Source: Consotaella salsifontis (GTDB lineage: Bacteria > Pseudomonadota > Alphaproteobacteria > Rhizobiales > Rhizobiaceae). From it: a stretch of DNA of 64,000 nt. Position numbers and translations under genes: made by a program. The DNA lies in NCBI RefSeq assembly GCF_900167365.1, contig NZ_FUXL01000009.1, forward strand, positions 124,001 through 188,000. Direction: 5' to 3'. Under the pieces are notes generated by a model that saw only the letters and a program-made list of their open reading frames with translations, was not told where the DNA came from and did no database searches. Positions 29,752-46,040 of the stretch are shown here, piece after piece. Numbering within the stretch: position 1 is the first letter of the stretch; every line of letters starts with the position of its first letter.

Positions 29752-29759
29752 GATCGCCC

Positions 29760-30848: not shown

Positions 30849-33724
30849 GACAACCTCGGCAACCTGAGCGCCGGACCGTCATGGTCCCGGTTGGCGGATA
30901 GAAGCGCAAGCATGCGTGCGCCGCGTAAAATCGCGGGACAATTCCGGAGTGAACGAAACAACTCGTCGAGATCGCGGTCGTAGACTTCGATGAGTCGCTG
31001 CGGTTGACATGCCAGCCGCAGGGCAAATTCGCACAGGCGGCGTTCCTTGCAGATGCCGTATCGCTCGGCCAGTTCGACATACCACTGGGTAGCCTGCGCG
31101 AGACCGTCATCGATGCGCGCGAAGTCCCGTCTCAGGACGGCACCGAAGCCGTTCTTCCTTTCGATGTTGTGCTGCAAACCATCCCGCGCACGCTCAGACT
31201 TCGGGGCGGCGCACAACGCATCCTCCGCCTTCATCCAGTTGAAACCGCATACCATTTCGTAAATCGCAGACAGGATTCCGGCCGCAACGCTATCGCGCCG
31301 AACTCCGGCGAGCGGTCCGGCAAGGCGGGCGCTGCGCCAGAGCGCGAATATCCGGATGGCCTGTTCGAGGGTAACAGCGCCGCCGCGTATGGCGCCGAAA
31401 TCCCAACTCACGCCGAGCCCGGACAGTCCAGGCCCGCTCAAGCCGGCACTGACCGCGACGGCGTCGTGGTAATGTCCGTGCTGCGTGGTGAAAAGACCGC
31501 CTGGGGCGCTTACCTTGGAGCCGGACAACGCATCGGCAGGTGGCAGCGCCTCGGCAGCAACGGGACGTTCGAAGGGAAAGAATAATGCGGCCGGCTGGGA
31601 CTGCTCGCTGCCCGTATCGTCTATTAGCCGCGCCGAGAGCGTGCCGTGATGGTTGCGGATAACCCATCGAACCGGAAGGGCATCGTGTTCGAAACGTACG
31701 ACATATTCCCCGAGTTCATCGCCCTTTATCCTGAGCGCACCCTCGGACGCTTCGAGGTAGCGCCAGGCATAATCCTCGCCGCGCTGGAGAAACTGGTCGA
31801 ATTTCCTGTGCCAGTTTTCTGGAGTCACCGGCAGGCTCATCGGATCGCCGACCTGCTCGGAAAATATCTGCTCGCCATTGCTTTTGGCGAGCGTGACCTC
31901 GCAAGTGACACGGTGGCTTTCCGGCCCGAGAACCGAGAGCCTTATGCCGTTTTCCCAAAACGCATCGAGATTGGCATCATGGGGGTCAACTGTGACGATC
32001 AGTCCGGCATGAGATGGCCGTCCGGGCGTCCACGATTCCGGCTCCCGCACGTTCAGGACCAGGTGGCCTTCCGCCGGCGGCGAGGACGGCGGCGCGGGTC
32101 CGGCTGTATCGGGCTTTGCCACGACGCTCAGCGTATGAATGCCCTCGGGCAGCGGCGGAAGCCTGAAAAAACTCGGGAAGCCCACGCGCCCTGCTTCAAC
32201 GATTGTTGCAGCGCCGCCGTCAAGACGAAGACAGTAGCCCTCTAAAGGATGGTCATGGGTGATCCCGAAGCATGGTGTTTCGGTGGTCAGCCATTCACTG
32301 TTGCCTTCGCCGTCCCACTGGTGAGCCGGCAATCCCGCGGGCCACACCCTGATGGTCCGCGCCACTTGAAGATCGAGTTTTTTCAGCCATGCGGCATCTT
32401 CAGCAGATACCGCGTCAGGCATCTTGAGCCGGAAAGCTTTCGCTCCCGCGCACTCGATGCTGCATGCGCTGACATACGGATGACCGGCGGGCGGTTCAGC
32501 GGTCGTTGCGATTATATATTCGTAGCTAGGCCGGACGATTCTCCCGGTGATTTCACGGGCGATGCCGTCCTGACCGACGCGGAAGAGCCAGTTCGGCCCC
32601 GCACCAAGACGGCATTCGCTCTCAACGAGGTGATCGAGCACGCCGTGAGATTGTTCGAACAAAAGCAGCGGCTTTTCCGGGTCCGGCCATGATTTGAGGA
32701 CGGCCTTCCTTCTGCCTGACAGCAGCCAGCCAGCGGGCTTGGTATCGTCCGCCCCATTCAGGCGACACCGGGTCTTCTTCAGGAAGGCGCGAACATCCGC
32801 GCTCACCGCAAGCCCCCTGAAGTCGGGGACATCCATGACAAGCGACCAGGTCCCGGCTCCCGAATAGCGGAGCATAAGGTTTGGCCGGATACTCAGGTTC
32901 GGCTGCTCGCCTCTCAACGCTCCGCGCCCGTGCGGGCCGCCGACGGCGCCCGGCAGGGACGGAGTGGAGCCGTGCCCGATGCCTTTGAAGCGATCGGCGA
33001 CCTCTTGCCGTGTCGCCTTGAGCCATTCGCGGGCGCTACGAACTTGTTCGAGGTCTGTAACGATCCGTTCAAGGGTTGGCGGATAGATGGGCTGCTGTGC
33101 GCCAGCCTGTTCCTGACCCAGCAGGGCAAGCACGATCCGGCCGGTTAGTTCCTCCTGCTGTAAGAACGCCTCAAAGCGAGTGGTGGCGTGAGCGTGTGCC
33201 GCGAGAACGCGCCCTACGCTAGCCGCCTCGAACCGAGCCACCCCGGCCAGTCTGTAACGAAGATCGTAAAGAGCGCGCGCGAATTGGAGCTGTAGATACC
33301 GTGGGAGAATGGCGTGGGTAATGGGCCACGCGATGATCCTAAAATGCGAGGCCCAGGGACCCGTTGGAACGACACCGTCATAGGCCTTCTGGAATTTGGT
33401 GAACCAGGGAACGACTTTATAACGATCGCCGAATTCCCAACTCGGCGTGTGCTCTTCGAACGAACGCCAATATTCTTCGCCGTCATAGTTATAGCCGCGC
33501 TCGGTGGCGTAGATCACCCACAGAAGCCAGTGAGATCGCAGGGGGAGACCGGCCTTCAGGCGGGACAGGAGAAGGCCGCTGATTTCCGCTAGCTCGTTTT
33601 CGTCCAGGCCGTGTTCTAGCGCGAATATCGGGAAACCGCTCCCGGCCCGCCTCTGCGCAAGGCCCGCAAAGTGCCTCTCAAGGCGCGCTTGCCATTGATC
33701 GAGAGGCGCGTGCATGGTCGTCAT
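30842..33724 (-). CDS. Unrecognised 960-aa protein of the Druantia-like operon
   Basis: Large soluble protein starting MTTMHAPLDQWQARLERHFA, no recognised catalytic motif. The N-terminal part is helical and tryptophan-rich (HWLLWVIYATERGYNYDGEE, WFTKFQKAYDGVVPTGPW, HFRIIAWPITHAILPRYLQL). The middle (about 270-700) looks beta-rich (LMLRYSGAGTWSLVMDVPDF, WLFRVGQDGIAREITGRIVR, GIHTLSVVAKPDTAGPAP), as in Ig-like or lectin-like folds. The C-terminus is helical again (ERYGICKERRLCEFALRLAC). It lies 22 bases after druA and overlaps the next gene, so it is a core part of the operon. It could correspond to DruB and DruC combined or be a different component; profile comparison is needed to decide. Confidence 0.8.
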   Translation of the reverse strand: MTTMHAPLDQWQARLERHFAGLAQRRAGSGFPIFALEHGLDENELAEISGLLLSRLKAGLPLRSHWLLWVIYATERGYNYDGEEYWRSFEEHTPSWEFGDRYKVVPWFTKFQKAYDGVVPTGPWASHFRIIAWPITHAILPRYLQLQFARALYDLRYRLAGVARFEAASVGRVLAAHAHATTRFEAFLQQEELTGRIVLALLGQEQAGAQQPIYPPTLERIVTDLEQVRSAREWLKATRQEVADRFKGIGHGSTPSLPGAVGGPHGRGALRGEQPNLSIRPNLMLRYSGAGTWSLVMDVPDFRGLAVSADVRAFLKKTRCRLNGADDTKPAGWLLSGRRKAVLKSWPDPEKPLLLFEQSHGVLDHLVESECRLGAGPNWLFRVGQDGIAREITGRIVRPSYEYIIATTAEPPAGHPYVSACSIECAGAKAFRLKMPDAVSAEDAAWLKKLDLQVARTIRVWPAGLPAHQWDGEGNSEWLTTETPCFGITHDHPLEGYCLRLDGGAATIVEAGRVGFPSFFRLPPLPEGIHTLSVVAKPDTAGPAPPSSPPAEGHLVLNVREPESWTPGRPSHAGLIVTVDPHDANLDAFWENGIRLSVLGPESHRVTCEVTLAKSNGEQIFSEQVGDPMSLPVTPENWHRKFDQFLQRGEDYAWRYLEASEGALRIKGDELGEYVVRFEHDALPVRWVIRNHHGTLSARLIDDTGSEQSQPAALFFPFERPVAAEALPPADALSGSKVSAPGGLFTTQHGHYHDAVAVSAGLSGPGLSGLGVSWDFGAIRGGAVTLEQAIRIFALWRSARLAGPLAGVRRDSVAAGILSAIYEMVCGFNWMKAEDALCAAPKSERARDGLQHNIERKNGFGAVLRRDFARIDDGLAQATQWYVELAERYGICKERRLCEFALRLACQPQRLIEVYDRDLDELFRSLRNCPAILRGARMLALLSANRDHDGPALRLPRLSW

Positions 33725-33746
33725 TCCTCCCCGTCCCGCCGCATAC

Positions 33747-34952
33747 CTAGCCCGACTTCAAAACGCGGGACCGCATCATCCGGCTTTGGCTGCCGAAAAG
33801 GTCGAAAAGGTTGTCGGGGGTCCACTGGAGATATTCCGTCCGGCGACGGGAGCGCGGGATCATCCAGCGCGAGACAGCACGCTCTGCAACATCAGCCGCG
33901 GTAAGCAGCGTTTTGACATCGGGCCTGCCCTTGCCGGTCTTCAGGATGTGCTTCGCATTTTCCGCCAGCAGGCAGAGAAAGACCTGCCGCTGAATACCGT
34001 GGCGGAGCATGTCGTCCTTGAAGCCAAGCGCGTCCAGCGCGGCGCGCGTGGTGCGCAGGCGCCAGTTCGGTCCTTGTCCGAATCGGTGCAGGTCGGCGTA
34101 GTGGTGCCCGGCGTCTCTCAGATAATCGCGAAGTTCGGCAAACAGCCTGTCGGGGATGTGGAAATGGCCCCATCCGCCGGTGTAGCCGATGGGCCGAAGA
34201 TACTCGGTTCCGTCGAGCTTGAGCCGATTGTAGACGGACGATCTGCCCATGGAGGACGAGGTCGTGATCGCAAGCAGCCTTGCCTTCTTCTCCTGCTGCG
34301 AGATGATGCCGGCCGTGGCGCCGTATAACTGCGCGAAATCATCATAGATATCCCGGCTTCTCAGAAGGCAGGCAACAAGCTTTCCGCCGAGAAGACTGTT
34401 GTAGGGGGGGACGGCGCCGAGCACGTAGGCATCCATGATGTTGACCAGCCGGGCCGACCGGTCGTGAACATCCCATCCGATGAGATTGTCCCGGACGGCG
34501 AGATTGAAGACGGGATCGCCAATCGCGATCAGACCGATGAGTTTTCCGTTGTGTTTGTCCCAAACAAGATAGCGTATGCGCCGGCCAAACCCGTTGGAAA
34601 CAGGCACCGACCAACTGAGCGAAGCCAGCCGGAAAAGGTCGCCTTGCCATGTACCGGAAGCAATCTTCTCCAGCACCGGCGATATGCGTTCAGGATCGAT
34701 ATCGGTGCCGCCGGCGAAATGCTTGAGCAGCGACGGCGCTTTGTCGCTGATGAATTGGCGGTTCGCGCACAGCCGCTCTTCGCGCTGGGCGGCATGAAGG
34801 GTGCGGATAACATCTTTGCTGTTCCCTTCAATCTGGAACAGGCCGCTTTCTGACTTCTTAAATCCGAGCGTTCGCAGATGCCGACGCAGTTTTCTCTTTA
34901 AATTCGCCTCACGAGACGCGAGCTTAACTACTTTGTTTTGTCTTGAATTCAT
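33747..34952 (-). CDS. druA: DruA, DUF4338 protein of Druantia type I-like defence
   Basis: 401-aa protein from ATG 34952 (MNSRQNKVVKLASREANLKR) with GGAGGGGG 10-17 bases upstream. The DUF4338/DruA core is evident: RIRYLVWDKHNGKLIGLIAI, GDPVFNLAVRDNLIGWD, VNIMDAYVLGAVPPYNSLLG, GGKLVACLLRS, then ITTSSSMGRSSVYNRLKLDG. DruA is the marker gene of Druantia type I anti-phage systems (established); its molecular role is not known. The reading frame overlaps the end of the upstream RHH gene by 29 bases, and the 960-aa gene follows after 22 bases, so RHH-druA-960-362-druE form one operon. Confidence 0.85.
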   Translation of the reverse strand: MNSRQNKVVKLASREANLKRKLRRHLRTLGFKKSESGLFQIEGNSKDVIRTLHAAQREERLCANRQFISDKAPSLLKHFAGGTDIDPERISPVLEKIASGTWQGDLFRLASLSWSVPVSNGFGRRIRYLVWDKHNGKLIGLIAIGDPVFNLAVRDNLIGWDVHDRSARLVNIMDAYVLGAVPPYNSLLGGKLVACLLRSRDIYDDFAQLYGATAGIISQQEKKARLLAITTSSSMGRSSVYNRLKLDGTEYLRPIGYTGGWGHFHIPDRLFAELRDYLRDAGHHYADLHRFGQGPNWRLRTTRAALDALGFKDDMLRHGIQRQVFLCLLAENAKHILKTGKGRPDVKTLLTAADVAERAVSRWMIPRSRRRTEYLQWTPDNLFDLFGSQSRMMRSRVLKSG

Positions 34953-35151
34953 CGGCCCGGAGCCCCCTCCGCTTGATATGCTCTTCAATTCTGCTTTCTG
35001 CCGCTTCCTGCGAGGCCCGCTCAATGTAGCCACGCATGAATTCACGGATTACCTGCGCCGCCGACTTGTCTTCCGCCCGACAAGCCTTGATGAAACCCTC
35101 CCTGAGGGAGCGTTCAACGCGTATCCGAAGCCCGACATTCTTCATCGCCAT
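34924..35151 (-). CDS. Ribbon-helix-helix-like small protein, probable operon regulator
   Basis: 75-aa basic protein reading MAMKNVGLRIRVERSLREGF then IKACRAEDKSAAQVIREFMR: a beta strand followed by two helices, as in CopG/Arc/ParD-type DNA-binding proteins. Starts at 35151 or 35145 (ATG) are both possible. It is the first gene of the Druantia-like operon and its 3' end overlaps the druA start. A palindrome, TACACAAGTGTA, covers its start (35151-35162), suggesting self-repression. No toxin gene adjoins it, so an antitoxin role is less likely than an operon repressor; this is inference. Confidence 0.6.
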   Translation of the reverse strand: MAMKNVGLRIRVERSLREGFIKACRAEDKSAAQVIREFMRGYIERASQEAAESRIEEHIKRRGLRADEFKTKQSS

Positions 35152-35288: not shown

Positions 35289-36602
35289 CTATGTCTTATG
35301 TCGATGATCATAACGCTGCGTGTGACCTACGGGCCTAAGGCCATGATTGTTCAAAGCGAGCGCCTTTCTCAGGTCATCGTGATCAAAGGCTGACGCCATC
35401 CGGTCGATCTCGCTAGGCGTGAGGCCAACCGCAGCAGCGGTGTCGCGCCAGTCCGCCACTGCTTGGCCCACTTCACTGGCGATCGCCCGCGCGTCCGCGG
35501 CCGTCAGTTCGAAATACTCCGCCACCTGCAGGGCGAGGTCGAGCGAGGCGGTGCCGTCGTCGAGATCGATCGCCGTCGTCAGCACGCGCGGCTTGATGTC
35601 CGTGGGCACGGGATTGACGTCGTAGGCCGGCGCCAGGCGCCAACCATCGGGGCCGGCATAGAGAAAGCCGTGATTGCGCAGGTGATCGTCGGTGTTGGAA
35701 ATCAGCACGCTGAAGACGATGCGCCGCCACAGCATGTGCATGTCCTTTTTCGGCGCGGCGCCGTGCTGGCGCAGCACGTCGACGAATTCGAGATAGCTGC
35801 GCGTCTCGTTGTCGTTGGCGCCGAGCATGCTCATGGCCGAGAGGAAGGGAATGCGGGTCTGCTCGTCGCGGTCGAAGCGGCGCACGAGCAGCGTCGCCCT
35901 GCCGGCGATCGTCTCGATGCGCCAGGGCGCGACAGGGATCCCCGCCTTCTCGGCAAGGCTCAGCGCCACGGCCTCCCACAGGACGATGTTGTAGTCATCG
36001 TCCTTATGCGGAAATTTCGCGATAGCGAGATGGCCGTCCCGATCGCGCACCGAGGCCTTGGGCCGTGCGCCGCCGAGCGAGGAGCCCGGCGCCAGCAGCA
36101 GGCGCAGATCCTCGTCGCTCTCAGACTCGCCGACGACATGGTCGGCCGCCGACAAGAGGCGCGGCAACTCGACCAGCGGCGGGATCGGCACCACATCACC
36201 GGCCGCAAGGAATGGTCCGCCGGACTCTCTTGCAAAGCGCAACGCGCCCTGCCGGGCCTCGTCATTGACCATGAGCAGATAGTCGATCTCGCGCAGCGTG
36301 CGGGGTGTCTCACCCGCCTTCTCCGCCCGCCGGCGTTCGGCGCGGCGCATGAGCACGCGCCCCCAGCGGTCAGGCGCGGAATCGCCGATGGCGCCGAACA
36401 GGGGCTTGCCCGCGGGCGTGTGAAACGGACCGGGCCCGAGCTGCAAGGCAGGCTCGAGGGAGAAGCGGACGGGATTGGCGAGCCAGTCCTTGTCGTATTC
36501 GAAGGTGGCACTGTCCCTCCCCTTGCGCATGCGCGCCCACAGGCGGCCGGCGAGATGCGGCGCCCCGTCAAGGTCGACATGGACAAGGACTTCGGTATCC
36601 AT
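35289..36602 (-). CDS. hipA: HipA-family serine/threonine kinase toxin
   Basis: 437-aa HipA-like kinase. In E. coli, HipA phosphorylates glutamyl-tRNA synthetase and induces persistence. Visible: N-terminal HipA_N couple region (DLDGAPHLAGRLWARMRKGR, PLFGAIGDSAPDRWGRVLMR), the P-loop-like LLAPGSSLGGARPKASVRD (about residues 170-188), KFPHKDDDYNIVLWEAVA, the catalytic loop ISNTDDHLRNHGFLY (Asp and Asn) and the metal site APAYDVNP. All key residues appear intact, so the toxin should be active. It directly follows the XRE gene on the - strand (stop/start adjacent), forming a hipBA pair. Confidence 0.92.
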   Translation of the reverse strand: MDTEVLVHVDLDGAPHLAGRLWARMRKGRDSATFEYDKDWLANPVRFSLEPALQLGPGPFHTPAGKPLFGAIGDSAPDRWGRVLMRRAERRRAEKAGETPRTLREIDYLLMVNDEARQGALRFARESGGPFLAAGDVVPIPPLVELPRLLSAADHVVGESESDEDLRLLLAPGSSLGGARPKASVRDRDGHLAIAKFPHKDDDYNIVLWEAVALSLAEKAGIPVAPWRIETIAGRATLLVRRFDRDEQTRIPFLSAMSMLGANDNETRSYLEFVDVLRQHGAAPKKDMHMLWRRIVFSVLISNTDDHLRNHGFLYAGPDGWRLAPAYDVNPVPTDIKPRVLTTAIDLDDGTASLDLALQVAEYFELTAADARAIASEVGQAVADWRDTAAAVGLTPSEIDRMASAFDHDDLRKALALNNHGLRPVGHTQRYDHRHKT

Positions 36603-36962
36603 CTAGCGGCTGCCTTCTTGCGCCGGGGGTGCCGCCCGCTCTTTCCGCGGACGGCGGATGCGCTGCGGCAGATGCTCCTCTTCGAGCTCGAGCCCAACGA
36701 CGTCGGTGCTGGCGTCGGCGAGACCGGCAAGCCGGTCCGCGAGGCCGAGCGCAAAGAGCACGGTCGCATATGTGCCGATCGAGACACCGGGCTCGCCCTT
36801 CTCGACCTTGTTCAGGGTCGTGCGGCTGATCGAGGCCCGCTCGGCCATGATGGCGACCGGGATCCGCCGCCGGCGCCTTGCGTCACGGATGTCCTCGCCC
36901 AGCTTGCGCAGGGCGCGCCGCACCGGGATCGGCAGGGTCGGAGCTGTTCGAGGCTTGGCCAT
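36603..36962 (-). CDS. hipB: HipB-like XRE antitoxin/repressor
   Basis: 119-aa protein with an XRE helix-turn-helix: ALRKLGEDIRDARRRRRIPV then AIMAERASISRTTLNKVEKG and EPGVSIGTYATVLFALGLAD (about residues 17-77). Cognate antitoxin and operon repressor for HipA; the last base of its stop is adjacent to the hipA start. Palindromic GTCCA/TGGAC sequences lie just upstream (36970-37016), as expected for an autoregulated hipBA operon. The C-terminal tail is basic and proline-rich. Confidence 0.9.
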   Translation of the reverse strand: MAKPRTAPTLPIPVRRALRKLGEDIRDARRRRRIPVAIMAERASISRTTLNKVEKGEPGVSIGTYATVLFALGLADRLAGLADASTDVVGLELEEEHLPQRIRRPRKERAAPPAQEGSR

Positions 36963-36968
36963 CTATAA

Positions 36969-37016
36969 CGTCCATATTGGCACGCTTTATATCATATAAA
37001 GTCCACTATATTGGAC
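36969..37016. promoter_or_regulatory. hipBA operator region with palindromes
   Basis: Three elements upstream of hipB: CGTCCATATTGG (36969-36980), the perfect 17-bp palindrome CTTTATAT-C-ATATAAAG (36985-37001), and GTCCA-CTATAT-TGGAC (37001-37016). A further GCGTCCAC lies at 37067-37074. The AT-rich palindrome probably overlaps the promoter; the GTCCA/TGGAC half-sites are the likely HipB-binding boxes. Confidence 0.6.
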
Positions 37017-37211
37017 GCAATGTCAATGAGACGTTAAAGGTGGCCGCAGAACGCGTCGGTCATATAGCGTCCACTTTAGCGAACCATATATGCTTTTTTG
37101 TTCACGATTATGAACCTACGGGTCGCCAAGAGACGCGGCACGATATGCCGCTGATTGTGAGTCGGCGGTTCGCCAATTGTGACGCCTCGGGCCGCTGGTT
37201 TGGAGGCTGGG

Positions 37212-37277
37212 AGGGGAAAGCCTTCCCCTGCGGCCGAGCCAAGGTCTCGGCCGACCCCTTCTGCGGGGAGACCCCGC
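37212..37277 (+). other. Cluster of three tandem hairpins upstream of ardC
   Basis: Consecutive perfect stems in noncoding DNA: AGGGGAA/TTCCCCT (37212-37229, loop 4), GGCCGAG/CTCGGCC (37232-37252, loop 7) and GCGGGG/CCCCGC (37263-37277, loop 3). This is dense secondary structure 94-160 bases before an anti-restriction gene. It could be a single-strand promoter or oriT-linked structure of the mobile element (inference). Confidence 0.5.
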
Positions 37278-37316
37278 AACGCCCCCTTTAGAGTGAGAGT
37301 GCGGACCGGTTTGCCA

Positions 37317-37363
37317 TGACGGGTTGAAAGCCGAGGGAGAGGCTCACGGCGCCCGTCGCGGAG
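37317..37363 (+). promoter_or_regulatory. Repeated 47-nt hairpin leader, copy A (upstream of ardC)
   Basis: Aligns without gaps to 38781-38827 (42/47 identical). An outer stem GACGGG (37318-37323) with CCCGTC (37352-37357) encloses an inner stem AGCC/GGCT. It ends with CGCGGAG, 7 bases before the ardC ATG, so the 3' part also supplies the ribosome site. One substitution between copies keeps the inner pairing (C-G to U-G). Confidence 0.65.
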
Positions 37364-37370
37364 AACCGCG

Positions 37371-38330
37371 ATGTCCAGACAAAACCGCAAACCCGGCGCC
37401 AAGGGCGACCGGACCAATCTCTATTCCGAAATCACCGACAAGATCATCGCCGAGCTAGAGGCCGGCCGTGTGCCCTGGGTCCAGCCCTGGGGAACCTCGG
37501 CGGCGAAGGCGCCCCTCGGCCTTCCGAAGAACGCCTCCACCGATCGTCAGTATTCGGGCATCAACGTCCTGCTCCTCTGGGGCGCCGCGATCGAGCGCGG
37601 CTTTTCCGGCCAGAGCTGGCTGACCTTCCGCCAGGCGCTGTCGCTGGGCGGAAATGTCCGCAAGGGCGAACGCGGCACCACCGTCGTCTATGCCGACCGC
37701 TTCGTGCCGGAGGACGAGAAGCGCCGGGCGCGCGAGACCGGCGAGGACGCCCAGGCGATCCCGTTCCTCAAGCGCTTCACCGTCTTCAACACCGACCAAT
37801 GCGAGAACCTGCCCGAGGATGTTGCGACCGCCGCGCCGCCCGTGCCGATAGGTCTGATCGAACCGCGCGTCGAGGCGCTGATCGCGGCAACGGGCATAGA
37901 CTTCCGCATCGGCGGCAACCGGGCCTTCTATGTGCCAGCACATGACTATGTGCAGGTGCCACCGCCGCAGACCTATTTTGAGCCCATCAATTGGCACCGC
38001 ACGGCGCTGCACGAGATGGGCCACGCGACAGGCCATGCCTCACGTCTGGGGCGTGATTTCTCGGGCTCCTTCGGCACGAAGAAATACGCCTTCGAGGAAC
38101 TCATCGCCGAGATCAACGCCGCCTTCTGCTGCGCCTCGCTCGGCATTGCGCCGACCGTGCGGCACGCCGACTATATCGGCTCCTGGCTCGAGGTGCTGCG
38201 CGAGGACAATCGCGCCATCGTCCGCGCCGCCGGCCAGGCGGGCAAGGCCGCCGACTGGCTTCTCGCCTTCGCGCCCGACGCCGTGGAGACCAGTTCGGTG
38301 GAGACCTCCTGCGACAGGAGGGTGGCATGA
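37371..38330 (+). CDS. ardC: ArdC-type anti-restriction / zincin metallopeptidase protein
   Basis: 319-aa ArdC-family protein. Domain order: N-terminal ssDNA-binding region (DRTNLYSEITDKIIAELEAG, VQPWGTSAAKAPLGLPKNAS, YSGINVLLLW) followed by a zincin-like metallopeptidase with HEMGHATGHASRLGRDF (HExxH at about residue 221) and FEELIAEINAAFCCASLGI. ArdC proteins are carried in plasmid/ICE leading regions and protect incoming DNA from restriction (family knowledge). The start ATG 37371 follows the hairpin leader. The stop overlaps the next gene (ATGA). Confidence 0.9.
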   Translation: MSRQNRKPGAKGDRTNLYSEITDKIIAELEAGRVPWVQPWGTSAAKAPLGLPKNASTDRQYSGINVLLLWGAAIERGFSGQSWLTFRQALSLGGNVRKGERGTTVVYADRFVPEDEKRRARETGEDAQAIPFLKRFTVFNTDQCENLPEDVATAAPPVPIGLIEPRVEALIAATGIDFRIGGNRAFYVPAHDYVQVPPPQTYFEPINWHRTALHEMGHATGHASRLGRDFSGSFGTKKYAFEELIAEINAAFCCASLGIAPTVRHADYIGSWLEVLREDNRAIVRAAGQAGKAADWLLAFAPDAVETSSVETSCDRRVA

Positions 38331-38704
38331 TCCTGTTGACCGACGACCTGCGCGACCGGCTGCTCGCCAACGGGCGGCAGCGCGATATCGATCATGTGCC
38401 CGTGGTGAAATTCTTCAATCCGGTCGGCGCGGGCACCTGGCTGATCACCGAGATGGAGGCGGACGGCGACACCCTGTTCGGCCTTGCCGATCTCGGCTTC
38501 GGGTGTCCTGAGCTGGGCGCCTGCAGCCTTGCCGAACTCACTTCGGTGCGCCTGCCATTCGGTCTCGGGATCGAACGAGACATCCTGTTTCAGGCGACAG
38601 TCCCGATCTCGGTCTATGCCGAGGCAGCGCGCCGGGCCGGCCACATTGTCGAACGCAGAGATATGCTGGAGGAAGCTGCGGCGGCAATGCAGTCGCGGCG
38701 GTGA
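38327..38704 (+). CDS. DUF2958 family protein
   Basis: 125-aa protein beginning MILLTDDLRDRLLANGRQRD, with FFNPVGAGTWLITEMEADGD, LFGLADLGFGCPELGACSL and LPFGLGIERDILFQATVPIS: the full DUF2958 pattern. Function unknown. This family regularly sits next to ArdC and ParB-like genes in alphaproteobacterial plasmids and integrative elements. Translationally coupled to ardC by a 4-base overlap. Confidence 0.88.
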   Translation: MILLTDDLRDRLLANGRQRDIDHVPVVKFFNPVGAGTWLITEMEADGDTLFGLADLGFGCPELGACSLAELTSVRLPFGLGIERDILFQATVPISVYAEAARRAGHIVERRDMLEEAAAAMQSRR

Positions 38705-38780
38705 GGTGGCGCTCAGGCTGTCACCTTCGTGTGTGGCTCTGGCCGGGCGCGGGAGAGTTAGAGGGCTGCGCCCTTTTCCG

Positions 38781-38827
38781 TGACGGGTTTCAAGCTGAGA
38801 GAGAGGCTCTCGGCGCCCGTCGCGGAG
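38781..38827 (+). promoter_or_regulatory. Repeated 47-nt hairpin leader, copy B (upstream of parB-like gene)
   Basis: Second copy of the leader at 37317-37363, 42/47 identical, ending 9 bases before the parB-like ATG at 38837. The outer stem GACGGG/CCCGTC is perfectly kept and the inner stem AGCU/GGCU keeps pairing with a G-U wobble. It lies in the 132-base gap after the DUF2958 gene. Confidence 0.65.
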
Positions 38828-38836
38828 TAAACCACC

Positions 38837-40924
38837 ATGGCGACAGCAGCCAAGAAAATCACCCTCAGCGCCTCGCGCGAAATTCCCTTCAACAAGCTCG
38901 TCCTCTCCCAGTCCAACGTACGGCGCATCAAGGCCGGCGTCTCGATCGAGGACCTGGCCGAGGACATCGCCCGCCGCGGCCTCCTGCAGAACCTCAACGT
39001 CCGTCCGGTCGTGGATGGCGACGGCAAGGAGACCGGCATGTTCGAGGTTCCGGCCGGCGGCCGCCGGTTTCGGGCGCTCGAACTTCTGGCCAAGAAGAAG
39101 CGGTTGGCCCGGACCGCGCCGGTCCCCTGCCACGTGCGCGAGGCGGACAGCGACATCTCGGCCGAGGAAGATTCGCTCGCCGAAAACGTCCAGCGCGCAG
39201 CGCTGCATCCCCTCGACCAGTTCCGCGCTTTCCAGACTTTTGGCGACCAGGGCATGAGCGAGGAAGAAATCGCCGCGCGCTTCTTCGTCTCGGTCAACAC
39301 CGTCAAGCAGCGCCTCAAGCTGGCTGCCGTGTCGGAGAAGCTCCTCGACCTCTATGCCGAGGACGCCATAACGCTCGATCAGCTGATGGCCTACACGGTT
39401 TCCTCCGATCATGCCCGTCAGGAACAGGTCTGGGAGGCCATCGAGCATAGCTGGTCGAAGGAGCCCTATCAGATCCGTCGCATGCTCACCGAGAATACCG
39501 TGCGGGCCTCGGATCGGCGTGTGCGCTTCGTCACGATCGAAGCCTATGAAGAGGCCGGCGGCACTGTCCTGCGCGATCTCTTCCAGGACGATGACGGGGG
39601 GTGGATCGAGGACGTGGCCCTGCTCGAACGGCTGGTCGGAGAGAAGCTCACCGCCGAGGCGGAGACCATCGCCAAGGAGGGCTGGAAATGGATCTCGGTC
39701 GCAGCCGATTTCCCCTATGGTCATACCAACGGCTTGCGGGCGCTCACCGGCACACCCGTCGATCTGACCGACGAAGAGCGGGCCGCACGCGAAGCCCTGC
39801 GTGAGGAATTCGATCGGCTCGAAGCCGAATATGTTGAGACCGAAGGATTGCCCGACGAGGTGGACGAACGGCTCGGCGAGATCGAGGCGGCGCTCGACGC
39901 CTTCGAGGATCGGCCTACGCGCTACGATCCTGCCGAGATCGGCCGCACCGGCGCCTTCGTCAGCATCCGCCACGATGGGCAGCTTTCGGTCGATCGCGGC
40001 TATGTCCGGCCCGAGGACGAGGCGCCCGAGGGCGACGGCGATGCGGCGACCAATCCCGGCGCCGTGCAGCGAACGGTGATCACCGTCGGCGGCGAGGCCG
40101 AGAACACGGACGAGGACGACGACACAATCAAGCCGCTACCCGAGCGACTGGTCACCGAGCTGACGGCCCATCGCACGCTCGCGCTGCGGGACGCGCTGGC
40201 GAACAATCCGCATGTCGCGATGACCGCGCTCCTGCACAAGCTGGTACGCGACACCTTCCGTCATGTCTCCACGACTGGGTGCCTCGATGCCTCCGTCCGC
40301 CACGTCTTCTTCCCAGTCCAAGCCGACGATCTGAAGGACAGCCCGTCCGCCAAGTCCGTCGAGGAGCGGCAGCAGGCGTGGCAGGGCGACCTGCCGGCCG
40401 ACGACGATGCGCTCTGGGCCAGGATCGACGGGCTCGACGAGGCAAGCCGCGTGGCGCTGCTCGCCCATTGCGTCTCCTTCGGCGTGAACGCGCTCTACGA
40501 GAAGGTCAATCCCTATGGGGCGGGGCCGACCTCGCATGGCGTGCAGCAGCGCATCCGCGAGGCAGATCGTCTCGCCCGCGCCGTCGGTCTCGACATGGTG
40601 GAGGTCGGATGGCGGCCGACGGTCGGCAATTATTTCGGCCGGGTGACCAAGCCGCGCATCCTCGAAGCGGTGCGCGAGGTCAAGGGCGAGGAAACCGCGC
40701 AACTCATCGACCACCTGAAGAAGCCGGACATGGCCAAGGAGGCGGAACGCCTGCTTGCCGACAGCGGCTGGCTACCCGAACCGCTGCGCCTGCCCGCCAT
40801 CGTCGATGGCACCCCCTCGGATCCCGAGGGGGACGACACCGAAGCTCTGCCTGCCTTCCTCTCCGACGAAGACGAAGGTGACGAAGAGCCCGCGGACGAG
40901 CCGCAAACCATGGCTGCCGAATAG
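38837..40924 (+). CDS. ParB/RepB/Spo0J-type protein, large form of mobile elements
   Basis: 695-aa protein with a ParB N-terminal nuclease-like domain: SREIPFNKLVLSQSNVRRI (about residue 15), IEDLAEDIARRGLLQNLNV, VPAGGRRFRALELLAKKK and EEDSLAENVQRAALHPLDQF (NENR/QR box), followed by an HTH (GMSEEEIAARFFVSVNTVKQ). A long C-terminal half (about 250-695) is acidic and has no domain I recognise. It is much longer than plasmid-partition ParB and is typical of the ardC-DUF2958-ParB module of integrative/plasmid elements; the role in replication, partition or regulation is not established. A terminator-like hairpin follows at 40982-41011. Confidence 0.88.
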   Translation: MATAAKKITLSASREIPFNKLVLSQSNVRRIKAGVSIEDLAEDIARRGLLQNLNVRPVVDGDGKETGMFEVPAGGRRFRALELLAKKKRLARTAPVPCHVREADSDISAEEDSLAENVQRAALHPLDQFRAFQTFGDQGMSEEEIAARFFVSVNTVKQRLKLAAVSEKLLDLYAEDAITLDQLMAYTVSSDHARQEQVWEAIEHSWSKEPYQIRRMLTENTVRASDRRVRFVTIEAYEEAGGTVLRDLFQDDDGGWIEDVALLERLVGEKLTAEAETIAKEGWKWISVAADFPYGHTNGLRALTGTPVDLTDEERAAREALREEFDRLEAEYVETEGLPDEVDERLGEIEAALDAFEDRPTRYDPAEIGRTGAFVSIRHDGQLSVDRGYVRPEDEAPEGDGDAATNPGAVQRTVITVGGEAENTDEDDDTIKPLPERLVTELTAHRTLALRDALANNPHVAMTALLHKLVRDTFRHVSTTGCLDASVRHVFFPVQADDLKDSPSAKSVEERQQAWQGDLPADDDALWARIDGLDEASRVALLAHCVSFGVNALYEKVNPYGAGPTSHGVQQRIREADRLARAVGLDMVEVGWRPTVGNYFGRVTKPRILEAVREVKGEETAQLIDHLKKPDMAKEAERLLADSGWLPEPLRLPAIVDGTPSDPEGDDTEALPAFLSDEDEGDEEPADEPQTMAAE

Positions 40925-40981
40925 CCGCTCGGGCGGGGCGGCCCATGCCGCCCCGCGTCTCACACCATCATTCTCATCTCG

Positions 40982-41011
40982 GCCCGGTCACCGCACCGGG
41001 CATTTTTATTT
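40982..41011 (+). terminator. Intrinsic terminator/attenuator after the parB-like gene
   Basis: GCCCGGT (40982-40988), loop of 6, ACCGGGC (40995-41001) followed by ATTTTTATTT. It is only one base before the CAGGAGG ribosome site of the next gene (ATG 41024), so it may act as an attenuator. A second GC-rich stem, GGGGCGGC/GCCGCCCC, sits at 40935-40954. Confidence 0.75.
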
Positions 41012-41023
41012 CAGGAGGTCGAC

Positions 41024-41434
41024 ATGGCCGACTACTTTACCCACTTCTCCTGCGTCCTTGACGTCAGAACACCCGAGAACGCCGCACGCACGCTCGATCT
41101 CTACAACCGTCTGTCCGACGAAAACGCCTCGGAAGACCCGCCGTCCGAAAGCTTCGATCTCTCCATCGTGCCCGAGCATGGCGGCACCTGCCTCTGGATA
41201 CGCGATGATGGCACCGGCGATCCGGAACATGTCATCCAGTTCGTCAAACGATGCGCCGCCGCGTTCGCACTGACCGGACGATGGGGCTTCCAATACGCCA
41301 ATACCTGTTCGCGGCCTCGCATCGATGCGTTTGGCGGCGGCGCCCATGTCCTCGACCTAGCCACTGGCGAGACCGTGGCGTGGACCTATACCGGCGAATG
41401 GCTGGCCGAAACGCTCCAGGGAGGTCGGCCGTGA
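41024..41434 (+). CDS. Conserved hypothetical protein of the mobile-element core
   Basis: 136-aa acidic protein beginning MADYFTHFSCVLDVRTPENA, with FDLSIVPEHGGTCLWIRDDG, HVIQFVKRCAAAFALTGRWG and FGGGAHVLDLATGETVAWTY. I do not recognise a named domain. A strong CAGGAGG ribosome site lies 6 bases upstream, directly after a terminator-like hairpin. It is overlapped at its 3' end by the next small gene (GTGA). Its place between the ParB-like gene and the strawberry notch helicase matches element cores in related bacteria (from memory). Confidence 0.75.
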   Translation: MADYFTHFSCVLDVRTPENAARTLDLYNRLSDENASEDPPSESFDLSIVPEHGGTCLWIRDDGTGDPEHVIQFVKRCAAAFALTGRWGFQYANTCSRPRIDAFGGGAHVLDLATGETVAWTYTGEWLAETLQGGRP

Positions 41435-41649
41435 GCATTCCCGACCATGCCCGCGCCAATTTCCAGACGCTGTTGCGGGCCGCCGCCGACGGCAATCTCG
41501 CCCTGCTCGAATGCGCCGACGCCGAGACCGGAGCGGTGCGGTATGTGATCTGCGCGGTCGGCCGGGACGACGAGGAGTTCCTCTTCACGCCTTTCGGTCA
41601 TCTTGCCGACGGCAATTCCTACGATGCCTATCGGCCGCCCGAGCCATGA
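41431..41649 (+). CDS. Small conserved hypothetical protein (DUF6117-like)
   Basis: 72-aa protein starting at GTG 41431 (MSIPDHARANFQTLLRAAAD), overlapping the previous stop, with LALLECADAETGAVRYVICA, EEFLFTPFGHLADG and a C-terminal YDAYRPPEP. The pattern (short N-terminal helix, then a beta hairpin around Y-V-I-C-A) recurs in this element type. Function unknown; the family name is a memory-based suggestion. Confidence 0.7.
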   Translation: MSIPDHARANFQTLLRAAADGNLALLECADAETGAVRYVICAVGRDDEEFLFTPFGHLADGNSYDAYRPPEP

Positions 41650-41660
41650 GAGGGAGAGGG

Positions 41661-41744
41661 TTGCCGGGACGGGTTTGAGCCGGTGCGGTCAAAGAGAGAG
41701 CGCTGCCCGGCTTGCCCCGTTCCCGCTCTCCCGAGGTTCTTCCC
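41661..41744 (+). promoter_or_regulatory. Divergent structured leader upstream of the strawberry notch gene
   Basis: Noncoding spacer sharing the GACGGGTTTGAGCC start (41678-41691) of the ardC/parB leaders, with a distant complement GCCCCGTTCCC at 41715-41725. It has AAAGAGAGAGCG in place of the GAGAGAGG segment. The inner sequence differs, so this is a weaker third member of the leader family. Confidence 0.35.
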
Positions 41745-44700
41745 ATGACAGAGATCGTTCCCGGGGCGGCGCTCGCCCGCGCCGCCCATCAACTCCTTCC
41801 TCTTCTCGAACAAGGTCAGCGCATCGACGCGCCCGCGCTCCGTATCGCGATGGACGCCGCCTTTGGCGGCTCCGATACCGACGGCGCCTGGGACTGGAAA
41901 ACCGCCTATGACGTCTGCGAAGGTGCCACCGTCCTGTTTCTGCGCAAATACGGAAAGGCGCTTCTGCGCAAAGCCGGGTCTCCGGCGGCCGCGTTGCCAT
42001 TGCTCAACAGGATCGCCGGCCTTCAGCCCTCGCACACCCGCCGCTCCGAAGAGAGCGAGGCCTTCCAGCAATTCTCGACGCCGATCCCCCTAGGCTTTGC
42101 AGCGGCGACCGCCGCCACGATCGCTGCGGATGACATCGTGCTGGAACCCTCCGCCGGCACCGGCCTACTCGCCATTCTCGCCGAAATCGCCGGGGGCCGT
42201 CTCCATCTCAACGAGCTTGCCGAGACACGCGGCACGTTTCTCTCTTCACTCTTTCCGGCTCTTTCGGTCACACGCTTCGATGCGGCCCAGATCGACGACT
42301 ATCTGCACGCCAATGCTGTTCCCAGCGTCGTGCTGATGAACCCGCCATTCTCGGTGACGGCAAACGTGTCGGGCCGCATGGCTGACGCCGCCTATCGCCA
42401 TGTCGCCTCGGCGCTGGCGCGCCTGGCACCGGGTGGACGTCTCGTCACCATCACCGGTGCCAGCTTCGCGCCCGAGACCCCGAAGTGGCGGGACGCCTTC
42501 AAGCGCCTGCAGGAGCATGGGCGCGTCGTCTTCACCGCTGCGATCGACGGTGCGGTCTATGCGCGCCATGGCACCACCATCGACACCCGGCTGACGGTGA
42601 TCGACAAGATCGCAGCCGACGATCCCGCCGCCTTTCCGGCTTCGCGGGGTATCGCCCCCGATGTCGCGACACTGCTCGGCTGGATCGAGGCGGACATGCC
42701 ACCCCGCGCACCGGTTTCCTTGCCGGCGATCTCCGGACAGCGGGTCACTCCACCGCGCTCTATCTCAGCCGCGCACCGCAACCTAGGTGGGGGCAGCGCC
42801 GCATCGTCCATTGCCGATCCGACGGGCGAAGAGCTCACCTATGAAACCGTCGATTGGACCCCGCCGCAGGGCGCGCGCCTCACCGATGCGATCTATGAAG
42901 AATACGCGCTTCAGTCGATCCGTATTCCCGGCTCTCAGGCGCATCCCACCAGGCTCGTCCAGTCCGCCGCCATGGCCTCGGTTGCGCCGCCAAAACCGGA
43001 CTATCGCCCGCATCTGCCAGTGGGGCTCGTGGTCGATGGCACTCTCTCCGACGCCCAGCTCGAAAGCGTGATCTATGCTGGCGAAGCCCATGCCCAGCAT
43101 CTCGCCGGCTCCTGGTCCGTCGACGAGACCTGCGATGTGGTCACCGCCGCGGCCGAAGACGCTGACGACGCGGTCCGTTTCCGGCGTGGCTGGTTCCTCG
43201 GCGACGGCACCGGCGCGGGTAAGGGCCGCCAGGTCGCCGGCATCCTGCTCGACAATTGGCTGAAGGGCCGCCGCCGCGCCGTCTGGGTGTCCAAGTCCGA
43301 CAAGCTGCTCGAGGACGCGCAGCGTGACTGGTCGGCGCTCGATCAGGAGCGACTGCTGGTCACGCCGCTCTCGCGCTTTCGCCAAGGCACGCCCATCCGT
43401 CTGCCGCAGGGCATCCTATTCACCACCTATGCCACGCTGCGCTCCGACAAACGCGGATCGAAGGTTTCCCGCGTCAAACAGATCGTCGATTGGTTGGGGA
43501 AGGATTTCGATGGAGTGATCATTTTCGACGAGAGCCACGCCATGCAGAACGCCGCCGGATCGAAGGGCGAACGCGGCGACCAGGCCGCTTCGCAGCAGGG
43601 CCGCGCCGGGCGGCGCCTCCAGCACGCGCTTCCCGATGCGCGTGTCGTCTATGTCTCCGCGACCGGCGCCACCATGGTCCACAATCTCGCCTATGCCCAG
43701 CGGCTCGGTCTCTGGGGCGGCGAGGATTTTCCCTTCGCCACCCGCGCCGAGTTCGTCGAGGCGATCGAGGATGGCGGGGTCGCCGCGATGGAAGTCCTGG
43801 CGCGTGACCTGAAGGCGCTCGGCCTCTATCAGGCCCGTTCGCTGTCCTATGAAGGGGTCGAATACGAGTTGGTCGAGCACCAGCTCACCGACGAGCAGCG
43901 GCGCATCTACGACGCCTATGCCGGCGCCTTCGCAATCATTCACAACAATCTCGACGCCGCCATGCAGGCGACCAACGTCACCGGCAGCGAAGGCACTCTG
44001 AACCGGCAGGCCAAGTCCGCCGCACGGTCCGCCTTCGAGAGCGCAAAGCAGCGCTTCTTCAACCACCTGATCACCGCGATGAAGACGCCCTCGCTGATCC
44101 GCGCCATCGATGCCGATCTCGAAGCCGGCCATGCCGCCGTCATCCAGATCGTCTCCACGGGCGAGGCGCTGATGGAACGGCGGCTCGCCGAAATCCCGAC
44201 CGAGGACTGGAACGATGTGCAGGTCGACATCACGCCTCGCGAATATGTGCTCGATTATCTCGCGCATTCCTTCCCGGTGCAGCTCTACGAACCCTTCACC
44301 GACTCGGAGGGCAATCTGTGCTCGCGCCCAGTGTTCCGCGACGGCCAACCCGTCGAAAGCCGCGAGGCCGTCGCAAGGCGCGACCGGCTGATCGAGAAGC
44401 TCGCATCGCTACCGCCGGTTCCCGGCGCACTCGACCAGATCATCCAGCGCTTCGGCACCGAGATGGTGGCCGAAGTAACCGGCCGCTCGCGCCGTATCGT
44501 CCGCAAGCCCGGTGCCGGCGCCACGGCCGATCGCCTCGCCGTCGAAGGTCGTGCCATTTCCGCAAATCTCGCCGAAACCCAGGCCTTCATGGATGACGTC
44601 AAGCGCATCCTGATCTTCTCGGACGCCGGGGGTACAGGGCGCTCCTATCATGCCGACCTCGCGGCGAAGAACCAGCGACTGAGGGTTCACTATCTGCTGG

Positions 44701-46040
44701 AGCCGGGCTGGAAAGCCGATGCGGCGATCCAGGGCCTCGGGCGCACCAACCGCACCAACCAGGCGCAGCCGCCGCTCTTCCGGCCGGTCGCCACCGACGT
44801 GAAGGCTGAGAAACGCTTCCTTTCCACCATCGCCCGCCGGCTCGATACGCTCGGCGCGATCACGCGGGGCCAGCGCCAGACCGGCGGCCAGGGCCTGTTC
44901 CGCGCCGAGGACAATCTCGAAAGCGCCTATGCGCGCGACGCTCTGCGCCGGCTCTATCTGATGATCGTCGGCGGCAAGGTCGAAGGCTGCTCGCTGCAGA
45001 CCTTCGAGACCTCGACCGGTCTGAAGCTCGCGGATGATACCGGCATCAAGGACGACCTACCGCCGATCACCACCTTCCTCAACCGGCTCCTGGCGCTCAC
45101 CATCGATCTGCAGAACATCCTGTTCGCGCATTTCGAGCAGATCCTCACTGCGCGAATCGAGGGCGCCATTGCCAGCGGCACCTATGACGTCGGGCTGGAA
45201 ACGCTGAGGGGCGAGCAGTTCACGGTCACCGACCGGCAGGTGATCCATACGCATCCCGCGACCGGTGCGGAGCCCACGCTGCTCTCCATCGCCCAGCGCG
45301 AACGGAACCATCCCGTCGCACTGGACGAGGCGCTCGACCATCTCACCGATCCGCGTGCTGCCCTGCTGGTCAACGAGCGATCGGGCCGGGCCGCGGTGCG
45401 CGTTCCGACCACCAGCGTGATCGACGACGACGGTGTCGTCGAACGCCGGGTGCGACTGATCCGGCCGATGGAATCCTCCAAGGTGCCCGTTGCGATGATG
45501 GGCGACACGCATTGGGTCGAAACCGACCGCGAGACCTTTGCGCGCATCTGGGACACCGAAGTGGCGGCGGTCCCGGAATATACCGACAGCACTGTCCACA
45601 TCGTTTCCGGGCTGTTGCTGCCGATCTGGAAGCGTCTGCCCACTGAATCGACGCGGGTGTACCGGCTCCAAACAGATGACGGTGAGCGGATCATCGGCCG
45701 CAAGGTCTCACCGGCCTGGGCCGCGAACGCGGCGACCACGGGCACCACCAGCCTTTCGGCGGACGACGCCTTCACCGCGCTGACCGAGGGCCGCACGATC
45801 CTCGACCTCTCCGAGGGGCTTCAGCTTCGCCGCGCCCGCGTCATGGGCGCGAACCGCATCGAGCTCACCGGCTTCACCGACACGATGCGCGACCGCCTCA
45901 AGGCCTATGGCCTCTTCGGCGAGATCATCTCGTGGAAGTTCCGGCTGTTCGTCCCGACCGACGCGTCCAGCGCTGCGGTCCTCGCTAGGCTGCTGGAGCG
46001 GTTTCCGGTCGAGCGTATCGCCGAGCGGGAGGCTGCCTGA
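41745..46040 (+). CDS. Methyltransferase-like/strawberry notch-family SF2 helicase fusion
   Basis: 1431-aa protein from ATG 41745 (MTEIVPGAALARAAHQLLPL). The N-terminal part (about 100-300) is an N6-type methylase fold: LEPSAGTGLLAILAEIAGGR (SAM motif I) and VVLMNPPFSV (motif IV NPPF). The central and C-terminal parts are a strawberry notch-type helicase: GWFLGDGTGAGKGRQVAGIL (Walker A, about residue 485), VIIFDESHAMQNAAG (DESH), YVSATGATMVHNLAYAQRLG, and RILIFSDAGGTGRSYHADLA then IQGLGRTNRTNQAQPP. These fusions accompany ArdC/ParB in alphaproteobacterial mobile elements; substrate and role (anti-defence, replication) are unknown. The stop overlaps the next start (TGATG). Confidence 0.88.
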   Translation: MTEIVPGAALARAAHQLLPLLEQGQRIDAPALRIAMDAAFGGSDTDGAWDWKTAYDVCEGATVLFLRKYGKALLRKAGSPAAALPLLNRIAGLQPSHTRRSEESEAFQQFSTPIPLGFAAATAATIAADDIVLEPSAGTGLLAILAEIAGGRLHLNELAETRGTFLSSLFPALSVTRFDAAQIDDYLHANAVPSVVLMNPPFSVTANVSGRMADAAYRHVASALARLAPGGRLVTITGASFAPETPKWRDAFKRLQEHGRVVFTAAIDGAVYARHGTTIDTRLTVIDKIAADDPAAFPASRGIAPDVATLLGWIEADMPPRAPVSLPAISGQRVTPPRSISAAHRNLGGGSAASSIADPTGEELTYETVDWTPPQGARLTDAIYEEYALQSIRIPGSQAHPTRLVQSAAMASVAPPKPDYRPHLPVGLVVDGTLSDAQLESVIYAGEAHAQHLAGSWSVDETCDVVTAAAEDADDAVRFRRGWFLGDGTGAGKGRQVAGILLDNWLKGRRRAVWVSKSDKLLEDAQRDWSALDQERLLVTPLSRFRQGTPIRLPQGILFTTYATLRSDKRGSKVSRVKQIVDWLGKDFDGVIIFDESHAMQNAAGSKGERGDQAASQQGRAGRRLQHALPDARVVYVSATGATMVHNLAYAQRLGLWGGEDFPFATRAEFVEAIEDGGVAAMEVLARDLKALGLYQARSLSYEGVEYELVEHQLTDEQRRIYDAYAGAFAIIHNNLDAAMQATNVTGSEGTLNRQAKSAARSAFESAKQRFFNHLITAMKTPSLIRAIDADLEAGHAAVIQIVSTGEALMERRLAEIPTEDWNDVQVDITPREYVLDYLAHSFPVQLYEPFTDSEGNLCSRPVFRDGQPVESREAVARRDRLIEKLASLPPVPGALDQIIQRFGTEMVAEVTGRSRRIVRKPGAGATADRLAVEGRAISANLAETQAFMDDVKRILIFSDAGGTGRSYHADLAAKNQRLRVHYLLEPGWKADAAIQGLGRTNRTNQAQPPLFRPVATDVKAEKRFLSTIARRLDTLGAITRGQRQTGGQGLFRAEDNLESAYARDALRRLYLMIVGGKVEGCSLQTFETSTGLKLADDTGIKDDLPPITTFLNRLLALTIDLQNILFAHFEQILTARIEGAIASGTYDVGLETLRGEQFTVTDRQVIHTHPATGAEPTLLSIAQRERNHPVALDEALDHLTDPRAALLVNERSGRAAVRVPTTSVIDDDGVVERRVRLIRPMESSKVPVAMMGDTHWVETDRETFARIWDTEVAAVPEYTDSTVHIVSGLLLPIWKRLPTESTRVYRLQTDDGERIIGRKVSPAWAANAATTGTTSLSADDAFTALTEGRTILDLSEGLQLRRARVMGANRIELTGFTDTMRDRLKAYGLFGEIISWKFRLFVPTDASSAAVLARLLERFPVERIAEREAA

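Follow-up and report, generated by a model that had tools for sequence, protein, structure and literature searches.

A 64,000-nucleotide (nt) stretch of the Consotaella salsifontis genome (contig NZ_FUXL01000009.1, positions 124,001 to 188,000 of the forward strand), called the window here and numbered from its first letter, carries genes of a putative conjugative element. Three of them, ardC, a parB-like gene and a strawberry-notch helicase gene, are each preceded by a leader with a predicted hairpin next to the ribosome-binding site and a short purine box further upstream. The features of these leaders and their genes were as follows.

37290 to 37299, plus strand: box AGAG-NN-AGAG of the ardC leader (sequence reading)
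37314 to 37361, plus strand: class-1 hairpin before ardC (covariance model R1, 73.7 bits; covariation), with the outer stem at 37314-37323/37352-37361, the inner stem at 37330-37337/37343-37350 and the loop AGAGG at 37338-37342
37360 to 37363, plus strand: Shine-Dalgarno GGAG of ardC, its first two bases within the outer stem
37371 to 38330, plus strand: ardC (ArdcN and zincin-like MPTase-PolyVal domains; Pfam)
38327 to 38704, plus strand: DUF2958 gene, overlapping the ardC stop codon (Pfam)
38754 to 38763, plus strand: box AGAG-NN-AGAG of the parB leader
38778 to 38825, plus strand: class-1 hairpin before the parB-like gene, loop AGAGG at 38802-38806 (R1, 76.0 bits; fold z -4.82)
38824 to 38827, plus strand: Shine-Dalgarno GGAG of the parB-like gene
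38837 to 40924, plus strand: parB-like gene (ParB_N, and a sigma70_r4-like match under the curated cut-off; Pfam)
41649 to 41658, plus strand: box AGAG-NN-AGAG of the strawberry-notch leader, overlapping the stop codon of the DUF6117 gene
41649 to 41744, plus strand: class-2 leader before the strawberry-notch gene (alignment A4; 94.0% of cells paired, two-sided changes at 7 pairs)
41745 to 46040, plus strand: strawberry-notch helicase gene (AAA_34 and Helicase_C_4; Pfam, run on 41712-46040)

The initial annotation had aligned the 47-mers at 37317-37363 and 38781-38827 without gaps and found 42 of 47 positions identical. A recount gave the same figure, and no other spacing in the 64-kb window yielded a direct pair of 47-mers with at least 38 matches. 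The GACGGG/CCCGTC stem was indeed perfect in both the ardC and the parB-like copy, and the distance from the end of GGAG to the ATG was, as reported, 7 nt at ardC (37363 to 37371) and 9 nt at the parB-like gene (38827 to 38837). This outer stem had, however, been drawn too short, since it really extends to CCRUGACGGG/CCCGUCGCGG and runs into the Shine-Dalgarno sequence. The proposed inner stem was also present, its extent being amended to 8 base pairs (GCCGAGGG/CTCACGGC and GCTGAGAG/CTCTCGGC) around a loop AGAGG. A weaker relative had been noted before the strawberry-notch gene; it is real, belongs to a separate class with covariation of its own, and has its GACGGG beginning at 41668, not 41678. 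The AGAG-NN-AGAG box upstream of all three sites had gone unlisted. Relative to the consensus fold, the ardC copy has two mismatches, A.C in the outer stem and A.A in the inner stem, and the parB copy has none. Another contig of the same genome holds a second, more distant pair of leaders (R1, 53.9 and 52.8 bits); one precedes a parB-like gene, the other a gene of a third family.

A gap-free alignment of 93 thinned leaders (A1) gave a class-1 fold of a 10-pair outer stem (consensus CCGUGACGGG/CCCGUCGCGG), an asymmetric internal loop of 6 nt and 1 nt, an 8-pair inner stem and an AGAGG loop. In A1, 96.7% of the cells were paired, against 37-51% when the partner was slid, both sides had changed at 11 of the 18 pairs, and none of 500 shuffles reached the A1 values. 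RNAalifold, given no structure, recovered this fold less one pair. Since the search pattern had itself fixed some A1 columns, so that these are conserved by construction, a second count was made on 29 leaders (A6), 23 of them from loci found through ArdC or ParB homology, two from the window, two from the second element of the same genome and two from the R1 search of the phylum; A6 is less biased than A1, yet all of its leaders were located with R1. There, 96.3% of the cells were paired (36-49% when slid), 45 cells had changed on both sides where shuffles gave 13.8 (0 of 500), and 11 pairs had done so (1 of 500 shuffles). The otherwise fixed outer stem exchanged as well, GACGGG/CCCGUC becoming GACGAG/CUCGUC, and A-U became G-C in L192. 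The AGAGG loop, which is partly set by the search pattern, was nonetheless retained in most of A6. The shared structured leader first suspected from the window copies is therefore borne out by strong covariation among homologous leaders, in the motif-found set as in the 29.

The type of mispairing indicates which strand folds. G-U cells outnumbered A-C cells by 215 to 23, and 13 of those A-C cells were at one weak pair. A double-stranded DNA palindrome, or folding of the opposite strand, would give similar counts of the two; the folded molecule is therefore most likely the strand in the sense of the messenger RNA (mRNA). Because of this asymmetry and of the fixed place at the ribosome-binding site, we prefer RNA to a protein-binding DNA site. 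The DNA-level alternative, in which a repressor binds the box and palindrome or the folded strand serves as an Frpo/ssi-type single-stranded-DNA promoter at entry, draws on two facts: repressor sites and single-stranded promoters alike are known to stand in several copies in front of establishment genes (PMC8708921, PMC11541004), and the box resembles the dual motif of p576, TTATCCCnnTTATCCC, in consisting of two direct copies 2 nt apart (PMC8708921). It is quite unlikely, since the sense strand is the one that keeps its fold, tolerating G-U, since no -35 or -10 hexamer was seen within the stems by reading, and since the strawberry-notch box shares bases with the stop codon of the preceding gene. 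The stem moreover ends 7-9 nt before the ATG, so a transcript starting from a promoter there would have hardly any leader.

The contexts of the leaders were counted over 280 distinct sequences from 350 rows with GGAG required near the end, a requirement that removes antisense rows, duplicates and any leader without GGAG. GGAG lies outside the search pattern and was nearly invariant, each base occurring in 162-164 of 164 leaders, and its first two G pair with pyrimidines of the 5′ strand of the outer stem. The start codon followed at 7-9 nt in 265 of the 277 leaders having GGAG. The predicted unpaired probability of GGAG averaged 0.15 in 120 leaders against 0.39 with the leader part shuffled (lower in 102 of the 120), and was 0.27 at 151 other GGAG-ATG sites opening 100 codons. 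Predicted openness was 0.98 for the loop (99 leaders) and 0.54 for the box. A conserved sense-strand fold with covariation and a fixed place upstream of coding regions were thus both found, which is consistent with a structured mRNA leader.

In 233 of 259 leaders a GTG or ATG stands at the stem base, which raised the question of a leader peptide, with the conserved GTG starting a mini-ORF (open reading frame) whose translation opens the hairpin. Its frame was not kept, however: 109 stop after 3 codons, 71 overlap the start of the gene, 27 are in the frame of the gene, 22 stop earlier and 4 are open. The box is also too distant to act as a ribosome site for it. We regard the mini-ORF as largely refuted by its unconserved reading frame and a leader peptide as extremely unlikely.

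With at most one mismatch, the box AGAG-NN-AGAG (NN free) was present in 267 of 275 leaders against 2.2% of shuffles (single-base shuffles, as also used for terminators), and in 260 of these 267 it ended 17-19 nt before GACGG. Six stretches, namely the window and five from three plasmids, were also scanned with a stricter pattern that has an additional purine. It gave ten matches at ardC, parB or strawberry-notch leaders (one site being counted twice, as L154 and L254) and three stray matches on the other strand, and it missed the window ardC box, which is preceded by T, and some leaders of L155 and L255. Reading also led us to drop a pairing between the class-1 box and the inner-stem 3′ arm, because that arm varies (CTCTC, CCTCC, CTCGC, CTTCC), whereas the box is constant. 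A promoter reading of the 18-nt class-1 spacing was dropped as well, because the class-2 box is only about 10 nt from GACGGG and there are no hexamer matches.

A hairpin close to the 5′ end can, if stable, shield mRNA from decay, and the p576 paper proposes protection for short inverted repeats (PMC8708921), so the leader might stabilise the mRNA or guide an RNase without any regulation. Protection requires stability, not a conserved AGAGG loop, a fixed distance to the box or pairing of the ribosome site, and we consider this explanation very unlikely.

The combination of a linear box, a fixed spacer and a purine-pentaloop hairpin also recalls phage lambda, whose boxA and boxB have such a bipartite plan of linear box and hairpin. 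In a processive antitermination site of this nut/put-like kind, the transcribed box and hairpin would let polymerase read through terminators within the cluster. Terminator-like hairpins stood behind 25 of 56 complete ParB-sized ORFs downstream of a leader against 8 of 560 single-base shuffles, which makes antitermination a serious rival, and in several loci such a hairpin ends shortly before the class-2 box. However, antitermination does not require each gene to have a hairpin anchored at its ribosome site and start codon, nor a hairpin before every gene rather than one per operon. Within 36960-41760 the terminator-like sites numbered six, not clearly above shuffles (mean 3.0, standard deviation 1.9), and just one (38562-38581, within the DUF2958 gene) lies between the ardC leader and parB. 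We judge antitermination unlikely on balance. The site behind parB in the window, a terminator-like hairpin with a T-run at 40982-41001, stands directly before the ribosome site of the next gene, a point in favour of antitermination. The Shine-Dalgarno sequence and ATG of that gene follow it with no room between for a normal promoter.

A single covariance model for all three window sites was rejected: with filters off, R1 scored the strawberry-notch site at 9.2 bits (E 1.5), which is at noise level, so this site needed an alignment of its own. Its class-2 leader consists of the same box, GACGGGTTTGAG, a GA-rich loop AGAGAGAGCGC and then GCTCTCCC adjoining the ribosome site. In the window, with GACGGG at 41668, the box is able to pair with CTCTCCC next to the ribosome site. 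Among 21 aligned relatives (A4, which excludes L152, its 5′ half missing), 94.0% of the cells paired, and two-sided changes occurred at 7 pairs (4 of 500 shuffles) and in 22 cells (0 of 500), the structure being derived from the very alignment on which it was tested. Covariation does not bear on the pairing of the box with CTCTCC because both sides are nearly invariant. Of 40 distinct loci with strawberry-notch homologues, 19 satisfied all three strict text patterns and 21 did not, and a class-2 leader was recognisable by eye in 37, the exceptions being L147, L241 and L152. On this comparison the strawberry-notch leader is a related second class, with a predicted sister fold and the same box.

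Behind the R1 matches we counted 258 distinct proteins: 97 ArdC, 110 ParB-like and 51 others. These gene tallies used the best 150 of 194 matches (A2) and the best 150 of 161 (A3), weaker matches being left out, and their protein-naming step could not recognise strawberry-notch proteins. The 51 others clustered into one family of 32, one of 11 and 8 remaining proteins, some of them probably in wrong frames; one of the remaining, from a Sphingopyxis plasmid, resembles phosphoadenosine phosphosulfate reductase. The larger family comprises a 405-amino-acid protein (L142:901-2118) and 31 relatives with a class-1 leader; the tested member matched phrog_1362, of unknown function, and had no match in Pfam or NCBIfam. 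The smaller one comprises a 185-amino-acid protein (L006:1555-2112) and 10 relatives, also with a class-1 leader, and its tested member had no Pfam, NCBIfam or PHROG match. Both families are candidate establishment genes.

On plasmid pMC4, leader-bearing genes, nearly all in the same direction, are followed by toprim, DUF2493, DUF736, repA, parA, a VirD2-type relaxase, TraG and trb type IV secretion genes. A second plasmid, read up to trbK-alt, has the same series with a DUF3363 protein in the place of the relaxase and with inserted cargo, and the order on pMLb is ardC-parB-helicase-toprim-DUF2493. The series from repA and parA to the relaxase, TraG and trb was read on plasmids, the contig of the window itself being covered within the window. 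The leader was found in 8 of 8 rows with ArdC homologues of at least 68% identity (the window's own included) and in 12 of 13 rows with ParB homologues of at least 49% identity, the exception (L243) being a short fragment with an internal stop codon. Below 49% identity to ParB it was found in 1 of 12 rows, at a diverged copy of 34% identity (L238).

Recent local duplication, which could have explained the likeness of the two window copies, was rejected from leader identities in 46 loci with both leaders. There, the identity of the ardC leader was 0.545 on average to the parB leader of the same locus, 0.55 to the parB leaders of other loci and 0.70 to other ardC leaders (the latter two being medians). 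The parB leader of the same locus exceeded the median of other ardC leaders in only 4 of the 46 loci. The parB leaders were less uniform, at 0.59 to other parB leaders.

An exact degenerate pattern matched at least 120 stretches in a public genome collection. Of 80 titles among the matches listed, 76 were Alphaproteobacteria by name, 2 read only "Proteobacteria", 1 was a gammaproteobacterial metagenome-assembled genome and 1 a verrucomicrobium; by title the host groups were rhizobia, Rhodobacterales, sphingomonads and others, and only 2 viral contigs had a match. Allowing up to 3 mismatches, 45 of 297 sampled genomes of the same family matched, C. salsifontis included, against none for a backwards control pattern. 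A blastn search of plasmids with the parB leader (E limit 10) gave 124 records and 185 places, with 80% query cover in 4 records. Of 398 genomes of the phylum, R1 at E ≤0.001 found the leader in 34; of these, 33 (C. salsifontis among them) belong to the same class, and the match in the remaining one was weak (E 3e-4). The pattern, blastn and R1 samples therefore describe an alphaproteobacterial leader that is rarely seen elsewhere. One leader (L105:3008-3065) was in a contig titled Verrucomicrobia bacterium LP2A, which is either a phylum-crossing transfer or a mixed assembly.

By comparison, then, the class-1 leader is a predicted sense-strand hairpin of two stems with a purine loop, whose base holds the first two G of the Shine-Dalgarno sequence in its 3′ strand, and box, hairpin, ribosome site and start codon are at fixed distances. 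This fold is shared by ardC, the parB-like gene and two further gene families. Among 74 leaders with an ArdC, DUF2958 or ParB coding sequence at most 1.5 kb upstream, 36 begin 16-128 nt past its stop codon, 3 overlap it and the remaining 35 are farther away; together with the window strawberry-notch box on a stop codon, the 36 and the 3 place such leaders between cistrons. Their position, their constant spacing from the ribosome site and the absence of promoter matches all suggest that translation is what they control.

We consider it probable that these sequences form a family of cis-regulatory mRNA leaders of alphaproteobacterial conjugative elements, most likely acting as a translation-controlling RNA regulon. 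Hairpins that partly cover the ribosome-binding sites of ardC, parB-like and, as a related class, helicase genes suggest a previously unrecorded RNA switch acting on several element genes together. By default, the closed hairpin would keep the 30S subunit off ardC, the parB-like gene and the other leader-bearing cistrons. A trans-acting factor would read the AGAG units, two in the box and one in the loop, together with the hairpin, and would move the ribosome site between closed and open states. The repeated AGAG units would be natural recognition marks, and candidate factors are a protein of the element, a protein of the host or a small RNA with CUCU units. In this way the leaders may coordinate expression of the element, its anti-restriction and DNA-processing genes being translated together, most usefully soon after the element arrives in a new cell. 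For R388, it is the recipient and not the donor that requires ArdC (PMC7213743). More tentatively, we suggest an establishment RNA regulon in which one factor reads all three AGAG units and opens the ribosome sites of ardC, the parB-like gene, the strawberry-notch gene and the phrog_1362-type family together on entry; this would be zygotic induction by translation and not by a repressor or a single-stranded-DNA promoter, and it is a possibility rather than our expectation.

Several observations weigh against translation control by such a leader. About half of the G-U cells sit at two or three pairs and are not independent events, and the shuffle controls ignore relatedness, loci of one element in near species not being independent either. 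The ardC hairpin of the window, which has two mismatches, gains nothing over shuffles when its 58 nt are folded alone (z -1.52; 22 of 200 shuffles did equally well); at 106 nt it reaches z -2.41 (1 of 200). The parB leader, at 58 nt, is far more stable than its shuffles (z -4.82, -35.8 kcal/mol). Like the ardC hairpin, the class-2 copy of the window alone is no better folded than shuffles (z -1.47, 21 of 200); in its minimum-energy fold the ribosome site is only partly paired, and the centroid leaves it open. For the class-1 box no partner was found by reading, as opposed to computation, and a DNA role of the box is therefore conceivable. A plain consensus scan of both strands of 36960-41760 found no sigma-70-like promoter, a scan that covers alphaproteobacterial promoters poorly. 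Finally, ArdC homologues of at most 59% identity had the leader in 0 of 17 rows. From the split by ArdC and ParB identity, the leader follows one element lineage and is not needed for ardC generally.

In our judgement the timing of expression of anti-restriction and DNA-processing genes in conjugative elements is understood for few plasmids, and a compact covarying leader common to several such genes across Alphaproteobacteria offers a direct experimental handle. It may also serve as a marker for further establishment genes, as two families whose tested members lack Pfam and NCBIfam matches carry it.

Two other groups of genes neighbour the element genes in the window. A cluster on the minus strand (24193-35045), beside the element genes, encodes a 1905-amino-acid DEAD/MZB helicase, a DruA (PF14236) protein and uncharacterised neighbours, and we take it to be a Druantia-like defence cluster. 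A HipA-like gene and a small helix-turn-helix gene (35289-36962, minus strand) are divergent from ardC.

The initial annotation had recognised no named motif, and Rfam 15 likewise gave no match in the window at gathering scores. Below threshold, the only matches in 37200-41800 were Yfr1 (E 0.17, off the leaders) and, on the strand opposite the class-2 leader, a trypanosome snoRNA (E 0.14); neither came near its gathering score, and 15 leader-bearing loci yielded only a tRNA. No description of the leader was found in a literature search covering openly licensed papers, with most subscription papers and preprints outside it, and four leader fragments used as text queries retrieved no paper.

Among known systems, Frpo/ssi sites resemble the leader in lying before leading-region genes, in forming folded single strands and in their early expression (PMC11541004). 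In contrast, the folded strand of Frpo carries -35 and -10 hexamers, which neither the consensus scan nor reading indicated in the leader, and the predicted leader fold is placed on the ribosome site instead. The dual motif EGeRS2 of p576 is, like the box, a short direct repeat with a 2-nt gap before establishment genes including ardC. Unlike the box, it is a DNA operator beside a strong promoter and is bound by Reg-p576 (PMC8708921); the box is coupled to an RNA hairpin instead, and the scan matched no promoter. Integrative and conjugative elements of the Tn4371 family share the gene kinds repA, parA, traG and trb, and their Rep has been compared with that of pMLb, a leader-bearing plasmid in our analysis (PMC2789088). 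Their named hosts are, by our reading of the names, not Alphaproteobacteria, and the available part of that paper mentions no such leader. In the pLS20 plasmid family of Bacillus, it was the sequence upstream of ardC that revealed an establishment regulon (PMC8708921). No constitutive promoter was found in the copy of its conserved sequence EGeRS1 that was tested, and the mechanism is left open, the authors stating in the available text that they have no evidence for dependence on single-stranded DNA or RNA. EGeRS1 differs in being 420-751 bp long and Gram-positive, against about 80 nt here. The likeness considered here is one of plan, and in that plan the two agree: a conserved sequence in several copies, directly before the ribosome-binding sites of ardC and other element genes (PMC8708921).
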